A model generated the notes under the pieces. That model did no database searches. It worked only from the letters and a program-made list of their open reading frames with translations, and was not told the DNA's origin. DNA of 64,000 bases from an uncultured Akkermansia sp. (GTDB lineage Bacteria; Verrucomicrobiota; Verrucomicrobiia; Verrucomicrobiales; Akkermansiaceae). Positions 16,498-46,638 of the stretch are shown one piece after another (the stretch's first letter is position 1; every line of letters starts with the position of its first letter). The DNA is taken from assembly GCA_947629715.1 (NCBI GenBank), contig CANRET010000002.1, positions 1-64,000 of the forward strand. The letters run 5' to 3'. The position numbers were made by a program, and so were the translations under genes.

Positions 16498-16520
16498 AGG
16501 AAGACGAATTGATCACAGCT

Positions 16521-18455
16521 ATGGCAGCTCTTCCCAAGAATCCCGCCGCTTCCTTGCACCGCTCGTTGAATGTCGCCGCCGCTCCCAAAAGGATGGTACG
16601 TCTCAAAGCTTCCGACGGGCAGGCAATTGTCCCGAAGTTGAACGATACTGCTCCCGCCAAGTCCGAGCAGCCTGCGTCGGAAGCTCCTGCTGACGATCCG
16701 TCGGCTGTTCTCGATGCGGCAGAGGTCGCCGGCGTCGCCACAGAGGAGGAGGCGAGTCGATTGGCAACGTCGGAGTCTGAACGCGTGGCGGAGGAGGAAG
16801 TTGCTCAGGCTGAGAAGGAGGAACGGACAGCTGAGGAGGGACGCCGCAAGCCGACGGGCGGGGGATTGCCGCCCATGCGAGAATTGAACGCTCCTGCAGG
16901 AGCGTCCGGGCACAGCACGCCGTCTCATGAGCCCAAGAAGCAAAAGGTCTCGGGTTCGGAGACCTCCCAGAACCCTGTCGCGAAAGATTATACGAACGTG
17001 AGCGCGGTTGAACAGGCTGAGCTTTTGCACGATGTGGATGCCGAGTATGTGGAAAAGCTGCGCGCGACCATTACCAAGAAGTCCGTCTGGAAGTCCGCCG
17101 GTTTTTGGGGTATATGCGGCGCGATGGCGGTGGGCATCGGTGTGTGTGGAGTTTTGATCCTCCAGCACAACGCAGAGCAGAAAGCCAAGCTTGAGGAAAA
17201 TGCGAGAATAAACAAGATCCTCCACCGCGCTCAGGAGATCAACAAGCTGGGAATTGATACGCTCGGCGACGCTGAGAAGAAGCATGTGGATGTGCGTTGC
17301 AGTAAGGAGGAGGCGCGCTTCCTGATGGACGTGGTTGTGAATCCCGAGATGAAAGGAGTCGATGGAAAACCGCTCGGTGGCAATCACCCCGAGGGCATGG
17401 CCCAGCTCGCATGCATGCTTCTGAGTATCGCATCCGAGGCCGATGCCGACATCAGCAAGCTCGTCTTTGACCGTCTTGCCAAGGATGCCGCCAAGATCAA
17501 GCCTACCCTCTATCGCTGGCTTGTGCAGCGTCTGGCGGTGGCCAATATCGAAGGCATCAATGACAAACTTCACAAACTTGCCAAAACTCTTGCTAAAAAA
17601 TCCATCAAGAAATTTCCGAAGAGAGATGACATCCTCTCCTGTATTTGGGAGAGCATGGGATTGCGCGTCACGGAGAAAGATATTCCGATGATCACGGATC
17701 TGCTACGTAAGCCACGACTTTCCGGCGGGCTTTCGCGTACGCTCTCGCACTGCTTGGACAACATCGTGGAGCAAATGGATTCCATGGACAAAAAAAAGGA
17801 ACTCGGCGACAAAATTTTTGACTCGTTGCCTGAGGCCCAACGGCAGAACTTAATGCCCACTCTGGCTAAGTCATGTTCTCCGAAAGCGCTCGCTTATTAC
17901 AAGCAGCGCGCTGTTGACCCCAACAACTGGCGTACCGATCGCATTTTCTTTTCCAACTATGGTCAGGACGATATTTTGGATTACTTGCAGGGCGATTTAA
18001 TGTCCATCGCCGGTACGGATGAGAGAAAGAAAAAGATGGTGCAGAGTATGATCAACGGCATTGCGCGCCAGAATCGTGATCGCTCCCAGGAAGACGCTAA
18101 CAAACTTGTCTTGATGCTTTACGATAAGATAGACGAAGATACCGGAGAGTGGGCGGATGTCATGGCGCAAACCGACCCGACCGCCGCTACCTTTATCGGC
18201 AAGGATGATCCGCAATACCCCGCTCTCATGGAAAAGCGAGCCGTCCTCGAGAAATGCCGCCAGCAGAAGCTTGACTGTATCAAAATGCTCTCCGGCATGT
18301 ACGATTGGCCTTGGGTTGTTCAATTTCTGGAGAGGTTCTCCAAGGAGGGTGATAATGGCATCGTCTTTGAAGCTGAGCGTGCGCTGAACAGCGTTCGTGC
18401 CAACCGTGCCGAGAACGAACGCGTGCGCGAGGGTTATAAACAGCGCACCAAGTAA
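16521..18455 (+). CDS. unrecognised single-pass membrane protein with long helical C-terminal region
   Basis: About 644 residues, not recognised as a known family. The first 190 or so residues are low complexity (Ala, Glu, Pro, Ser) and probably disordered. One membrane helix (GFWGICGAMAVGIGVCGVLIL, about 195-215) follows. After it come about 420 residues, presumably periplasmic, that are helical and rich in Lys, Asp and Leu and could form HEAT- or TPR-like repeats; the spacing is irregular. No catalytic motif is visible. ATG 16521 was preferred because the promoter -10 ends at 16497. It is divergent from the secretion operon, with the two -35 boxes about 70 bp apart, so a role linked to secretion is possible but unproven. 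Confidence 0.7.
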   Translation: MAALPKNPAASLHRSLNVAAAPKRMVRLKASDGQAIVPKLNDTAPAKSEQPASEAPADDPSAVLDAAEVAGVATEEEASRLATSESERVAEEEVAQAEKEERTAEEGRRKPTGGGLPPMRELNAPAGASGHSTPSHEPKKQKVSGSETSQNPVAKDYTNVSAVEQAELLHDVDAEYVEKLRATITKKSVWKSAGFWGICGAMAVGIGVCGVLILQHNAEQKAKLEENARINKILHRAQEINKLGIDTLGDAEKKHVDVRCSKEEARFLMDVVVNPEMKGVDGKPLGGNHPEGMAQLACMLLSIASEADADISKLVFDRLAKDAAKIKPTLYRWLVQRLAVANIEGINDKLHKLAKTLAKKSIKKFPKRDDILSCIWESMGLRVTEKDIPMITDLLRKPRLSGGLSRTLSHCLDNIVEQMDSMDKKKELGDKIFDSLPEAQRQNLMPTLAKSCSPKALAYYKQRAVDPNNWRTDRIFFSNYGQDDILDYLQGDLMSIAGTDERKKKMVQSMINGIARQNRDRSQEDANKLVLMLYDKIDEDTGEWADVMAQTDPTAATFIGKDDPQYPALMEKRAVLEKCRQQKLDCIKMLSGMYDWPWVVQFLERFSKEGDNGIVFEAERALNSVRANRAENERVREGYKQRTK

Positions 18456-18470: not shown

Positions 18471-18636
18471 ATCGCTCCGAACGCGTGCGGTTTTTAAGAA
18501 TTCCGCTTCGCGTCAGCTTTGCTTCTCCTCGGGCTTCGCCCGCCCAAGTCCCCTGACTTTGAACCCTTAAAAAGTCATTTGTTCGGAGTGATCAAAAGGC
18601 GATAACCGGCATCGCAAAACCTTTTCGGCTTATCAC
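18471..18636. other. strongly structured intergenic element, candidate RNA with alternative folds
   Basis: Nested inverted repeats: 18471-18482 pairs with 18581-18592 (12 bp, the one mismatch being G-U in RNA). Inside lie TTTTTAAG/CTTAAAAA, GTCAG/CTGAC and a CGGGC/GCCCG hairpin. A second hairpin, GTGATCAAAAGG (18588-18599) with CCTTTT...ATCAC (18620-18636), shares bases with the first stem's 3' arm, so the two folds exclude each other. The remaining gene-free DNA to 19013 is pyrimidine-rich with no credible ORF. Confidence 0.45.
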
Positions 18637-18971: not shown

Positions 18972-19003
18972 CAGGCAATCGCACTCTCTCCTGCAATTGC
19001 CTG
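18972..19003 (-). terminator. hairpin just after the M16 gene, possible terminator
   Basis: CAGGCAAT (18972-18979) and ATTGCCTG (18996-19003) are perfect 8-bp arms with a 16-base loop, ten bases beyond the M16 stop. On the minus strand only a weak T-rich tract (TTATGATGTT) follows, so intrinsic termination is uncertain. Confidence 0.35.
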
Positions 19004-19013
19004 GCATCTCACT

Positions 19014-22000
19014 TCACTTGAGCGTCTCCCCTTTCTTGAGCGAAACCTCGGGGAGGAGGATGAAGTCGCTGGTGACAATGGCGTTTTTTGTGCTGAACGT
19101 CGGGGAAGACACTTGCTTCCCGCAGGAGCGGAGCAGTATGGCGGCCGGACCTGAGTAGTTTTGCTCGGCGCGCAGGGAGACGGAGCCGTCATCCGCTCGA
19201 GTGACAGAAAGAGGGGCGTGTTTGCGCGTGCAGCTCACCAGGGCGGGGCGTGCCGGGTCTCCGTAGAAAACGAGCGCATCACGCTCCAGCACAAGTCCCG
19301 CTGCGTCGCGCGCACGGTCGGCAGTCAGGCGTACCCCGGAGTTGAGTATGTCGCGCTGCAATTCGGGACCTATTTCCTCTCCATTGGGTTCCACTTTCAT
19401 GAGTTGCGGATCTACGGCCAATGTCTTGGCGATGAGCAGTTGGTTGGAGAGAAAGACGGCCTGAGCGAGAGTTGTATCATCGGTGTGGTTCAGGAAGAAA
19501 TGGCACACGGCGGCGGCTGCCTCTCCATACCACGAGGGAAGTGTAGAGCCGACAAACTGGTGGCATCCATAGGCGGAAATAGCGGTCACAGCCAGGCTCT
19601 GGCGACTACCGGCGGCATTGCCCGCTTGTCCGGGACCGAGAGCGAGCCATACGCGCTCATTGCGGTCCGGTGTAATGGTGGGAAAATGCATGGCCTCAAC
19701 CAAGCTCTGCAAAGCTCGTGTTTTGCCCTGCATGGCGGGTTGTCGGGCGCTGGCAAAGGCGATGAGATGCTGGCAACCCACGGAGTGCAGTTTCTTGTCG
19801 GAAGAAAAAACAAGCCCCTTGCACAGGGGCATTTCCAAGTTAAATGGGGAGGATTGGGTGGCTGTAATGAGCAGTTGCGGATTTTGGGTGGAGAGCTGGT
19901 AAGAAAAGCGCATTTGTATGCCGTCCTGCAGGGCTTCCCGACCTTCAGGAGTAGAAACGTCAAAAGTCGTTGTTGAGGCCGCGTCGCCGCTGCGTTCGGT
20001 GATGGGCAAGCCCTCTTGTTCACTCATGCAGTAGCTGTGTTCAAATCGCTGGTTATCGGGACAGGCGATGGCGAGCAGACGAGAAAGCTCGAGGACACCC
20101 TGACCTTGGGCGATGCGCAGGGCGTCCTCAGCGCAGTAGCCGGTGATGATGCCCCAGATGCAGTCGCCATAGGGGTCATCATCTATTTTGCGTGTGGCGC
20201 GATGCAGGTTGTTGATGCCGACGCGTGTCACTTCTTCCGGGCGCATTACAAAGGCGACGTAGAGAGGACGCGCTTCGCGCAGGACTTTTGTGCAAGTCTC
20301 TTCGCTCAGATCAGAAGTCACGCACAATTTCGCCCCCGGATATTTGTCCAGCAGAGCCTGGGCTACGGCCTTCCATTCCGGGATGTCGGCAGTAGCGGCA
20401 GTGGTCACGACAGCATACTCACCCGGTCCCGGCGTTGGCAGGGGAGGAGGCGGTTGCTGCACATTGGCGCTGGTCTCCTCATCGGATGAATGCGGTTGTG
20501 CGTCATCTTCCGGCGTGACAAAGAAGAAGTCGGCCCGGGTATCCTTACCGAAGATTTCGCGACCGAGGGCCCGTATTTCTTCCGAGGTGATACTCTCCAC
20601 ATCCTTGGTCACCTCGCGCATAAGCGACCGCCGTTCCGGGTCGCTCTGCAGATCGAGCAGGTTATGTTCCCACCAGGTCGGCGTGATGAGGTTCTTTTGC
20701 AACATGGCGCGGTAAGGACGTATGGCGAGCTGGAACTCCTCGTCGCTGATGCTGCCTTGACCGATGCCGTTGCAGATGCTCTCCATAGCGGCTTTTACTA
20801 TGGGACGATTGCGTTTCACGCCGGCGGAGATTGTGGTAATCAGAGCGGCGTTGTCGAAATCATCATTTGCCTGCACTTGCACTTGGGGGGAGTAGCTTTC
20901 GCCCATGGCAGCACGCAACCCGTCAAAAAGCTTGTTGCGCAGGATGGAGGCGAGTACATCAAGTCGGCGGTTGCGGCGCCGATCGCGCCCATTGCCGGCG
21001 GCGTGCACGCGCGCTACGAGTGTTTTGTCCAATTGGGTGGGGTAAGGCAGGGTGATATTCTGTCCCCATGCGTGCATGTCCACGCGGCGCTTTTCAGTCG
21101 TAAGGGGCCGCGGCTCAGCCTGTCTTTGAGGCATGGCGCCAAAGGTGCGCTCCAGTATCGGCAGCGTCGCTTCTACGTCAAAGTCGCCCACCAACGTGAT
21201 TTCCATATAATTCTTCTCCAGCAGGGGACGCATGCTCTCCATCACCTCATGAGTGGTGCGTGCTTCGATATCTTCGCGCTTCGGCACGGTGAACAGCACA
21301 TTGTCCCCGAAAATGGCGCGGCGCGATTTAGTAGCGTACACTCCCCCCGGAGTCGTTTCCAGCTCGCGGTACTCGTTGTCCAGATTTCGACGCAGCAGCG
21401 TTGCACCTTCCTCCCGATAGCCGGGGTAGAGAATGGCGGCGGCAATCAATTTGCACTGCAGTTCCAAGTCTTGTGAAGAGGCATTGCCGGAGAATATGAA
21501 GCGAGTGGGGGTCATGCCAAAGTTGAGCGACACCTGTTTGGCAGCCAGAAGACGCTCCAATTCATCATAGCTGTGCTCTTGGAGACCGCCACGATTCATG
21601 ACGGCATGAATCATGTTCGCTAAGCCGGGCGTAGAGGGCAGGCTGAGCAGCCCGCCGTCCATCGCCGCTTGCACGCTGACTGTACCTTTGCGGAAATTCA
21701 CGGGTTTCAGGTTGACGCGTATGCCGTTGGAGAGGGTGAGGATGGTTACGCCCAGGTCTTCCCAGTACTCCCGATGCAGAACTACGCCGGGCATGCCGAT
21801 GGTCTCATAGGCGAAAGGCTTGAGCGCTTGTTCCTCTTTTTTTTGCACCGGGGCTTGAAGAGCTTTGTCAAAGTATTCTTCGCACAGCGCTTCCGGTGTG
21901 GCATCCTGTGGCATCCGTCCCATCATAGTCAGCCGTGCGTTTTTCAGGTCGAAAGTTTCTCGGAGCGCCTGCTGGCATAAATCGGGGTTATCCAGAATGT

Positions 22001-23366
22001 GGGCGACAGCCGGTTGCAGTGCGCGCAGGTTTTCCTGTGCATCGGTCATCACCGCTTTCTTTCCGACCGCCGCTACGATGCGGTCGGCCATGGCAGCAGC
22101 AGGTATGGTTTCCCAGGTGGCGCAGGCTTGCTGCAGATTGCTCATCAGGGCGTCTGTGGCCTCTTTCAGCTCATCGGGCGTGAACCCGTATTGCATGGCC
22201 TGGCGCAGTTCCTGTACTCCGGCCTGCAGCGCGCTGCGCCACTGTTCCGGTCGGGCGGATATTCCCAACGTTGACAGTTCCGCCGTTTCGTACAAATCCT
22301 GGTGTTCAACGTTGGCCCTGGTGAAGGGGGAGTCTGCCGTGTGGGAGATACGGCGCAGACGACGTTCCAGCATAGCGCAAGCGAGTTTGAGCGGCAGGTC
22401 CTGTGCGCGCTGTTTGGCGGTGTCGGCTTTTTCTTGGTAGGGCTTGACCACGGTGACGTACAGGGTCACATCGGCCTGCTCGTCATTAGGTATGAGCTTT
22501 GCTTTCTGCTGCGGTTCGGTGAGTTGACCGACATCTGGTCGCGCGGCGGATTCTCGCGCTTGCATGCCTTCAAAATGGCGCTTCACCCAGGCCTCGGCTT
22601 CTTCAGGGACAAAGTTACCGGTGAGAATCAGCGTCATGTTGCCGGGCGTGTAGTAGTCTCTGTAGTGCTTGCGCACGAGTTCCGGGGAACCGTGGCGCAA
22701 TACTTCTTCTTTGCCGATGGGCATGTATTTTGCTGTACGAGTGCCTTCCGTGAGCTGTTCCAGAAACTGAACATGAGCCCGCATTTCGGCGGAATCCCGT
22801 GCTTTCAGCTCGCTGATTACGATCCCGCGTTCCTTCTCAATGGCCTCATCTTCCAGCGTTGCTCCGTCCGCAAAGTCGCGCATGATGGTGAGCGCCGTGT
22901 CCACCGTTTTTTCCTGCAGATTGGGCAGATCGAGCATGTACACTGTCTCCTGCAGTCCGGTGTAGGCGTTGGCATCCCCTCCGAAGCCCAGTCCCAGTTT
23001 TTGCATCACAGGGATCAATTCCCCGCGCCTGAAGTTGCTGCTTCCGTTGAACACCATGTGCTCCAACAGATGTGAAAATCCTGTGTTTTCATCATTTTCG
23101 CTCATCGAACCCACATTCACCCGGAGTCGTACCGAGCCTCGTCCCGCCGGTTCTTTCGTAGGACGTATCACGTAGCGCATTCCGTTTTCCAGCGTTCCTG
23201 TGGTGATGAGCGGGTCCTGCCGCAGCTCCTGCTCCTGCGGGGCGCTCGCTGCTTCTGTCGGTTCTGCCTGCTGAGCCTGCGCTGTCAACATGACCGCCAT
23301 GCACAGCGTCCCCAGAGCCATTCTCCACCCCGCTACCATCGATCGGTTGCTGTTTTTAGTCTTCAT
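19014..23366 (-). CDS. giant M16-family zinc peptidase fused to an extra C-terminal domain
   Basis: A 1,450-residue exported protein with a signal peptide ending near QAQQ. The first M16 unit (about 50-500) has the inverted zinc motif HLLEH (about 102-106) and the downstream Glu region ERGIVISEL (about 175), so it should be catalytic. The second M16 unit (about 540-990) lacks HxxEH, as the non-catalytic half of M16B proteins usually does. About 450 further residues follow a Pro-rich linker (PPPPLPTPGPG). They contain a conserved-looking DDDPYGDCIWGIITGY segment and GSTLPSWYGEAA. This third part was not securely identified; the motifs recall large planctomycete and verrucomicrobial proteins, perhaps cysteine-peptidase-like. 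ATG 23366 was preferred to the track's GTG at 23372. Confidence 0.85.
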   Translation of the reverse strand: MKTKNSNRSMVAGWRMALGTLCMAVMLTAQAQQAEPTEAASAPQEQELRQDPLITTGTLENGMRYVIRPTKEPAGRGSVRLRVNVGSMSENDENTGFSHLLEHMVFNGSSNFRRGELIPVMQKLGLGFGGDANAYTGLQETVYMLDLPNLQEKTVDTALTIMRDFADGATLEDEAIEKERGIVISELKARDSAEMRAHVQFLEQLTEGTRTAKYMPIGKEEVLRHGSPELVRKHYRDYYTPGNMTLILTGNFVPEEAEAWVKRHFEGMQARESAARPDVGQLTEPQQKAKLIPNDEQADVTLYVTVVKPYQEKADTAKQRAQDLPLKLACAMLERRLRRISHTADSPFTRANVEHQDLYETAELSTLGISARPEQWRSALQAGVQELRQAMQYGFTPDELKEATDALMSNLQQACATWETIPAAAMADRIVAAVGKKAVMTDAQENLRALQPAVAHILDNPDLCQQALRETFDLKNARLTMMGRMPQDATPEALCEEYFDKALQAPVQKKEEQALKPFAYETIGMPGVVLHREYWEDLGVTILTLSNGIRVNLKPVNFRKGTVSVQAAMDGGLLSLPSTPGLANMIHAVMNRGGLQEHSYDELERLLAAKQVSLNFGMTPTRFIFSGNASSQDLELQCKLIAAAILYPGYREEGATLLRRNLDNEYRELETTPGGVYATKSRRAIFGDNVLFTVPKREDIEARTTHEVMESMRPLLEKNYMEITLVGDFDVEATLPILERTFGAMPQRQAEPRPLTTEKRRVDMHAWGQNITLPYPTQLDKTLVARVHAAGNGRDRRRNRRLDVLASILRNKLFDGLRAAMGESYSPQVQVQANDDFDNAALITTISAGVKRNRPIVKAAMESICNGIGQGSISDEEFQLAIRPYRAMLQKNLITPTWWEHNLLDLQSDPERRSLMREVTKDVESITSEEIRALGREIFGKDTRADFFFVTPEDDAQPHSSDEETSANVQQPPPPLPTPGPGEYAVVTTAATADIPEWKAVAQALLDKYPGAKLCVTSDLSEETCTKVLREARPLYVAFVMRPEEVTRVGINNLHRATRKIDDDPYGDCIWGIITGYCAEDALRIAQGQGVLELSRLLAIACPDNQRFEHSYCMSEQEGLPITERSGDAASTTTFDVSTPEGREALQDGIQMRFSYQLSTQNPQLLITATQSSPFNLEMPLCKGLVFSSDKKLHSVGCQHLIAFASARQPAMQGKTRALQSLVEAMHFPTITPDRNERVWLALGPGQAGNAAGSRQSLAVTAISAYGCHQFVGSTLPSWYGEAAAAVCHFFLNHTDDTTLAQAVFLSNQLLIAKTLAVDPQLMKVEPNGEEIGPELQRDILNSGVRLTADRARDAAGLVLERDALVFYGDPARPALVSCTRKHAPLSVTRADDGSVSLRAEQNYSGPAAILLRSCGKQVSSPTFSTKNAIVTSDFILLPEVSLKKGETLK

Positions 23367-23403
23367 CGCCACCCATACGCGCGGCGAACCCGCATGCTTT
23401 CAG

Positions 23404-45999: not shown

Positions 46000-46638
46000 A
46001 AAAACAGGCAGATGCACAGGCCACCGCAATCGGACAAAAATGGGTGTACCGAATGGGGAAAAAGAGGGCATGAGGTTTATCGCCTGGACAAAAATAGTGT
46101 ACGATTTGAATGCTGGCACGCTACGCGCGAGATTGCCGAGCCGGCGCCCAGCGGAATTCTTGAAATGATGATGCGTTGATAGGAGGAAAGTATCTGGTGT
46201 TACGCTGTGCCGGGTTCACTGCTATGCCGAATCGTCCACGGTTTGACATCTTGTCGGGCTTGCTTCCGTTGACGCCTCGTCACCACATTGCCTCAAGCTC
46301 GCCTCACGACTGTTGCTTCGGAGTCGACTCGCGACGCCTCACCCCTGCGGGGCAACCCATGCGCGCTATCCATTCGCCCTTCCCGCCCGCTGCGCGTGCG
46401 CCTTCAACGGGGCCGTCGGGCGTGTTGTCCATTGGAAGCTCATGGGAAATGGGTTGGATGAGCCCGGAGAAAATTTTATTGGGACACGGGTGCAGGTCAA
46501 CCCCATTCGGATGAAATGGAAAATTCGAGAAAACTCTCCGATCGGTAGATCATGTTTTTTCACGCCGCTTTGTAGCTATGTCCGCGCACAGCTTTATGAA
46601 TCTCCGTTCGCTGTTTTCCAGTGCGTTCGATTTATGTT
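46000..46638. other. gene-free region of about 640 bp
   Basis: No ORF here has recognisable protein character, and no tRNA, tmRNA or RNase P core was found. It contains a small CCCCTGCGGGG hairpin near 46341. A short open stretch ending at 46179 could be a decayed gene end. Confidence 0.4.

Follow-up and report, generated by a model that had tools for sequence, protein, structure and literature searches.

Intergenic repeats of the neisserial NIME type are mosaics. MITEs of the ERIC, NEMIS, RUP, and Nezha type are non-coding, hairpin-forming elements within 70–300 bp that lie in intergenic space, and REP sequences and BIMEs, which are associated with RAYT transposases, are short, palindromic, high-copy, intergenic, and lineage-limited. 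By the REP/RAYT definition, GTAG or CGTC stands at the foot of the palindrome (PMC3733652).

The window, that is, the whole stretch of 64,000 nt analyzed here, contains a structured intergenic feature (18471–18636), the central part of which (18489–18561) is very probably a decayed copy of a palindromic repeat that is specific to one clade of rabbit-gut Akkermansia and dispersed through its intergenic space. The repeat family shares with REP sequences and BIMEs all of the properties listed above; however, inspection of the sequences showed neither GTAG nor CGTC at the foot of its palindrome. GTAG overlaps the hairpin loop in many family copies, and none is present there in the copy at 18489–18561. 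Furthermore, a gene for a Y1 tyrosine transposase (Y1_Tnp) was found in none of 13 genomes of the clade, in contrast to control genomes, in which such genes were found; they are also present in two other Akkermansia tested. A RAYT as mobilizer of the repeat was rejected on the absence of Y1_Tnp from the 13 clade genomes. The family resembles MITEs in its non-coding character, size, intergenic placement, and hairpin, but most copies lack a clear terminal inverted repeat of 15–30 bp—imperfect inverted ends, TTTCAAGAATTC and GAATTCCCTGAAA, occur in the G026 subfamily only—and neither a target duplication nor a parent insertion sequence was found for the family. By description, it is also like the mosaics of the NIME type, with head, hairpin, heptamer runs, and other modules combined variously. 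A literature search of titles and abstracts, with subscription journals mostly outside its scope, returned no description of such a family in Akkermansia; the family seems to be undescribed.

Setting and fold of the feature

The feature starts just 3′ of the stop codon of a 648-aa gene, the gene of unknown function that the preliminary description had placed before it, and lies 3′ to genes of both strands:

16509–18455, + strand: upstream gene, 648 aa, of unknown function (ORF)
18471–18482, + strand: 5′ arm of the outer stem, ATCGCTCCGAAC, outside the repeat core and kept neither in relatives nor in the C24 paralogue
18581–18592, + strand: 3′ arm of the outer stem, GTTCGGAGTGAT, pairing with 18471–18482 with one G-U
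18568–18635, + strand: right-hand module with the second hairpin, which has one paralogue, in the same genome (C24:231–297, 76% over 68 nt)
19014–23372, − strand: convergent neighbor, an M16-type peptidase (ORF)

The 648-aa gene, matched in 47 of 59 Akkermansia genomes, adjoins two PilB/GspE-type ATPase genes, and it and its orthologues diverge fast, from 76% to less than 30% identity within the genus. Just past the end of the M16 peptidase gene, a further hairpin, CAGGCAATCGCA/TGCAATTGCCTG (18972–19003), is a possible terminator of that gene. In the window, 558 nt separate the two convergent genes. Two relatives keep the pair, G020 with a spacer of about 25 nt and G070 with one of about 160 nt, and a core profile detected no repeat copy in either; the difference counts in favor of the decayed-repeat reading.

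Folding agrees with the preliminary description in its geometry: the two arms of the 12-bp outer stem pair as described, with one G-U; the three inner stems and the downstream hairpin are present in the minimum-energy fold of the + strand; and the second hairpin does use part of the outer 3′ arm, with five bases common to both, in that GTGAT (18588–18592) is able to pair instead with ATCAC (18632–18636). The competing fold, when forced, is 8.4 kcal/mol weaker and opens only 5 of the 12 outer pairs. The folding z-score of the + strand was −3.2 on 210 nt and −2.7 on 166 nt, and that of the − strand, on which the G-U turns into an A·C mismatch, was only −1.65. In a 166-nt scan of the 64 kb, 21 of 772 strand-windows were at least as unusual by z and 434 of the 772 at least as stable; stems like the outer one number 13 in the 64-kb window versus 1–6 in shuffled sequences. 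The fold is only modestly unusual, and folding alone would not single out 18471–18636; the informative evidence on the feature is its sequence relatives. The most unusual fold of the same scan was observed at 2657–2822, inside a 404-aa ORF, with z of −5.0 on the − strand and −3.8 on the + strand.

A repeat core within the feature

The starting lead consisted of two weak blastn matches, one in the window's own genome (C24) and one in G016, the latter sharing TTTAAGAATTCCGCT with the window. Forty regions examined proved to form one family with subfamilies and a common core of head, GC-rich spacer, and CGCGC hairpin. In relatives, the core spans about 67 nt, with the head TTYAARAATTCCGCT followed by a short GC-rich spacer and the hairpin; it lies within a larger element of roughly 130–150 nt, and runs of an ATCGTnn heptamer often come after it. 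A covariance model of 26 cores (R2), the copy at 18489–18561 not among them, was used in the searches, and the window contains the following parts of the family:

18489–18561, + strand: diverged copy of the core of the dispersed Akkermansia repeat, with the TTTAAGAATTCCGCT head, a GC-rich spacer, and a CGGGC-TTC-GCCCG hairpin (R2, nhmmer, blastn)
18530–18544, + strand: inner hairpin of the repeat, limits approximate, with CGGGC/GCCCG here versus CGCGC/GCGCG in most copies
46102–46168, − strand: intact copy of the same core (R2, 78.8 bits, partly by construction, as this copy is among the 26 cores of the model)

Head, spacer, and hairpin, together about 67 nt, were all found in 18489–18561. R2 scored this stretch at 34.5 bits over model positions 1–67, with an E-value of 5.5e-5 in the 64 kb and of 0.0019 in its own genome, and the next, unrelated match in the window reached 11.2 bits. 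With nhmmer and the G026 subfamily, the match extends over 18493–18621 (E=1.4e-10), the right half of this alignment being weak, and blastn against G016:C8 gave 76% over 55 nt, the G016 match having proved to be a family member. In the inner hairpin, pairing has been kept though the bases changed. The copy is nevertheless a weak one, scoring 34.5 bits against 50–89 for typical copies; it is without the family's upstream 45–80 nt, and no run of ATCGTnn heptamers was seen on inspection of the sequence after 18561. At the second locus, similarity to the larger element covers 46098–46268 (nhmmer E=8.8e-47, with a model built without that copy); this well-preserved copy, on the − strand, sits between divergent ORFs.

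Since the central stretch belongs to a repeat family, the feature is to be read as a relic of the repeat rather than as an RNA switch; a candidate switch is removed, and a relic of a repeat family takes its place. The suggestion of a mobile structured element fared better, as the central 73 nt do lie in a high-copy dispersed repeat family; mobility itself we infer. The nested fold combines the hairpin of the repeat with complementarity in the flanks, outside the repeat. At present, the 18489–18561 copy is most likely without a specific function, or serves at most as a 3′-end hairpin between convergent genes. Besides the weakness of the copy, several points weigh against a decayed repeat: it leaves the outer stem and the second hairpin unaccounted for, neither a target-site duplication nor a mobilizing enzyme was found, and the 558-nt spacer could be ancestral and have been shortened in G020 and G070.

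Outer stem, second hairpin, and alternative readings

Neither the outer stem nor the second hairpin belongs to the repeat. In the window's own genome, the only further copy of the second-hairpin module is the C24 paralogue, which was seen on inspection to lie a few dozen nucleotides past the stop codon of a gene, oriented as in the window, and which is without the left outer arm, the best candidate having 6 mismatches in 12. A 3′-end role of this module is possible because the C24 paralogue also follows a stop codon. The outer stem may be fortuitous, or it may be what is left of a terminator-like hairpin into the loop of which the repeat came.

The latter leads to the alternative that survives best, namely a terminator or 3′-end stabilizing hairpin of the 648-aa gene, with the repeat inserted into the loop of an old 12-bp outer stem; it is compatible with a decayed repeat, concerns the flanking parts, and is possible, if doubtful. 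The feature lies 3′ of a gene on each strand, and in many if not most orthologues of the 648-aa gene the stop codon is soon followed by a single strong hairpin, frequently with a T run; moreover, the right-hand module recurs after a stop codon in C24, and one weak terminator-like site was detected on the − strand (18615–18599). Between the same two convergent genes in G070 (L053, 5417–5520), a 9-bp stem, ACGAGCGAT/ATCGCTCGT, encloses inner stems in a layout like that of the window's outer stem, without clear sequence similarity, which also speaks for such a hairpin. However, no T run follows the outer stem or the second hairpin on the + strand, terminator-like sites number 3 versus a shuffled mean of 1.0 (sd 1.0), and the arms are not conserved in sequence, the left one being absent from the C24 paralogue. 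The nested pairing as a whole, for which a covariance and homology check had been proposed, was seen after the orthologous gene in none of the relatives examined, among which L017 was covered in part.

Chance folding of intergenic sequence, with a coincidental similarity to the repeat, is improbable: the 13 comparable stems in the window and the 21 of 772 equally unusual windows are what it would lead one to expect, but three methods give the same relationship in register over 55–73 nt, and about 100 control genomes, searched with strict filters for best candidates only, contain no equally good match. Least probable is a cis-acting RNA switch that would alternate between mutually exclusive folds, which the preliminary description called typical of switches or of mobile structured elements: the outer 3′ arm has two possible partners and the + strand reaches a z of −3.2, but the alternative fold is the weaker by 8.4 kcal/mol, the nested structure is not kept in relatives, Rfam gave no match, and a switch would have no gene to act on, on either strand, because the feature lies between convergent genes, 3′ to both. 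In place of the conserved aptamer upstream of a regulated gene that marks a riboswitch, there is a non-conserved structure 3′ of both genes. The Rfam search of the window, at gathering and relaxed thresholds, returned nothing relevant, and the other family copies tested matched no family, with only tRNAs nearby.

Distribution and spread of the repeat family

A search for the TTTAAGAATTCCGCT motif with one mismatch gave 9–20 matches in each of G064, G077, G026, G025, G068, and G070 and 0–5 per genome elsewhere, with reversed-pattern controls near zero; named relatives put the carrier clade among rabbit-gut Akkermansia genomes. Over the genus, R2 detected at least 60 copies apiece in eight genomes of the clade, at least 27 in G016, at least 11 in G096, at least 6 in G020, at least 4 in G014, and at least 3 in the window's own genome, these being lower bounds owing to the strict filters of the wide searches. 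Two other Akkermansia genomes gave one marginal match each, with E about 0.03. With strict filters and best candidates only, under which zeros are not absolute, R2 gave no match at E≤0.03 in a further 63 Akkermansia genomes, nor any match in the 43 genomes searched from other genera of Verrucomicrobiales. Judged by these searches, the family appears to be confined to one clade. Its density is 65–160 copies per Mb in G064, G025, G077, and G026, compared with 5–12 in G020 and in as much of the window's own genome as was sampled. Such repeats are a source of confusion for structure-based RNA searches and for assembling genomes from metagenomes. Because related genomes carry anything from a few copies to at least 60, the family also lends itself to studying how short palindromic repeats can multiply in the absence of a RAYT gene.

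Placement is predominantly intergenic: G025 and G077 gave 61 strong copies, of which 51 are located between ORFs and 7 at the ends of contigs, while only 3 fall within a predicted ORF. Copy strand showed no consistent trend with GC skew. Repeat copies also follow the orthologous 648-aa gene in three genomes, with 44.9 bits in G026 and weaker matches in G025 (19.9) and G077 (12.5), at positions other than that in the window and partly in the opposite orientation; these are likely independent events, because the three genomes are rich in the repeat. In the hairpin, five cells of the pair table were changed on both sides, above every one of 500 shuffles; given that the alignment was fitted to the structure and that one control, shifted by +2, does nearly as well on one measure, the compensatory changes support the hairpin without amounting to proof.

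Among strong copies, heptamer runs of the ATCGTnn form come after the core in 9 of 23 and in 28 of 38 cases, as against less than 1% of random places; they are thus frequent without being universal. Tandem (AAATCGT)n, as well as ATCGTCC and ATCGTAC forms, flanks many copies (L111, L112, L117, and others), and inverted ACGATnn runs occur upstream of some. At one site, a whole unit situated between two AAATCGT heptamers distinguishes G025 from G077, the flanks being 95–97% identical, which shows turnover, whether by insertion or by deletion; the indel alignments of these two genomes contain no clear target duplication. The element probably spread as a non-autonomous unit, MITE- or REP-like, or by recombination between repeats, and did so mainly into intergenic space. 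It can be proposed, tentatively, that this is an undescribed clade-specific intergenic family which reaches about 65–160 core copies per Mb without a RAYT transposase, the palindromic core of which is bounded by heptamer runs serving as insertion or exchange sites, and which has almost died out in the window's genome. In L119, L121, and L123, another recurrent intergenic module (GCTTTGACGCTTCGGTACCGCACTACCTCAGCGCCCTGCGG...) was observed to be joined to the same head, suggesting mosaic repeats.
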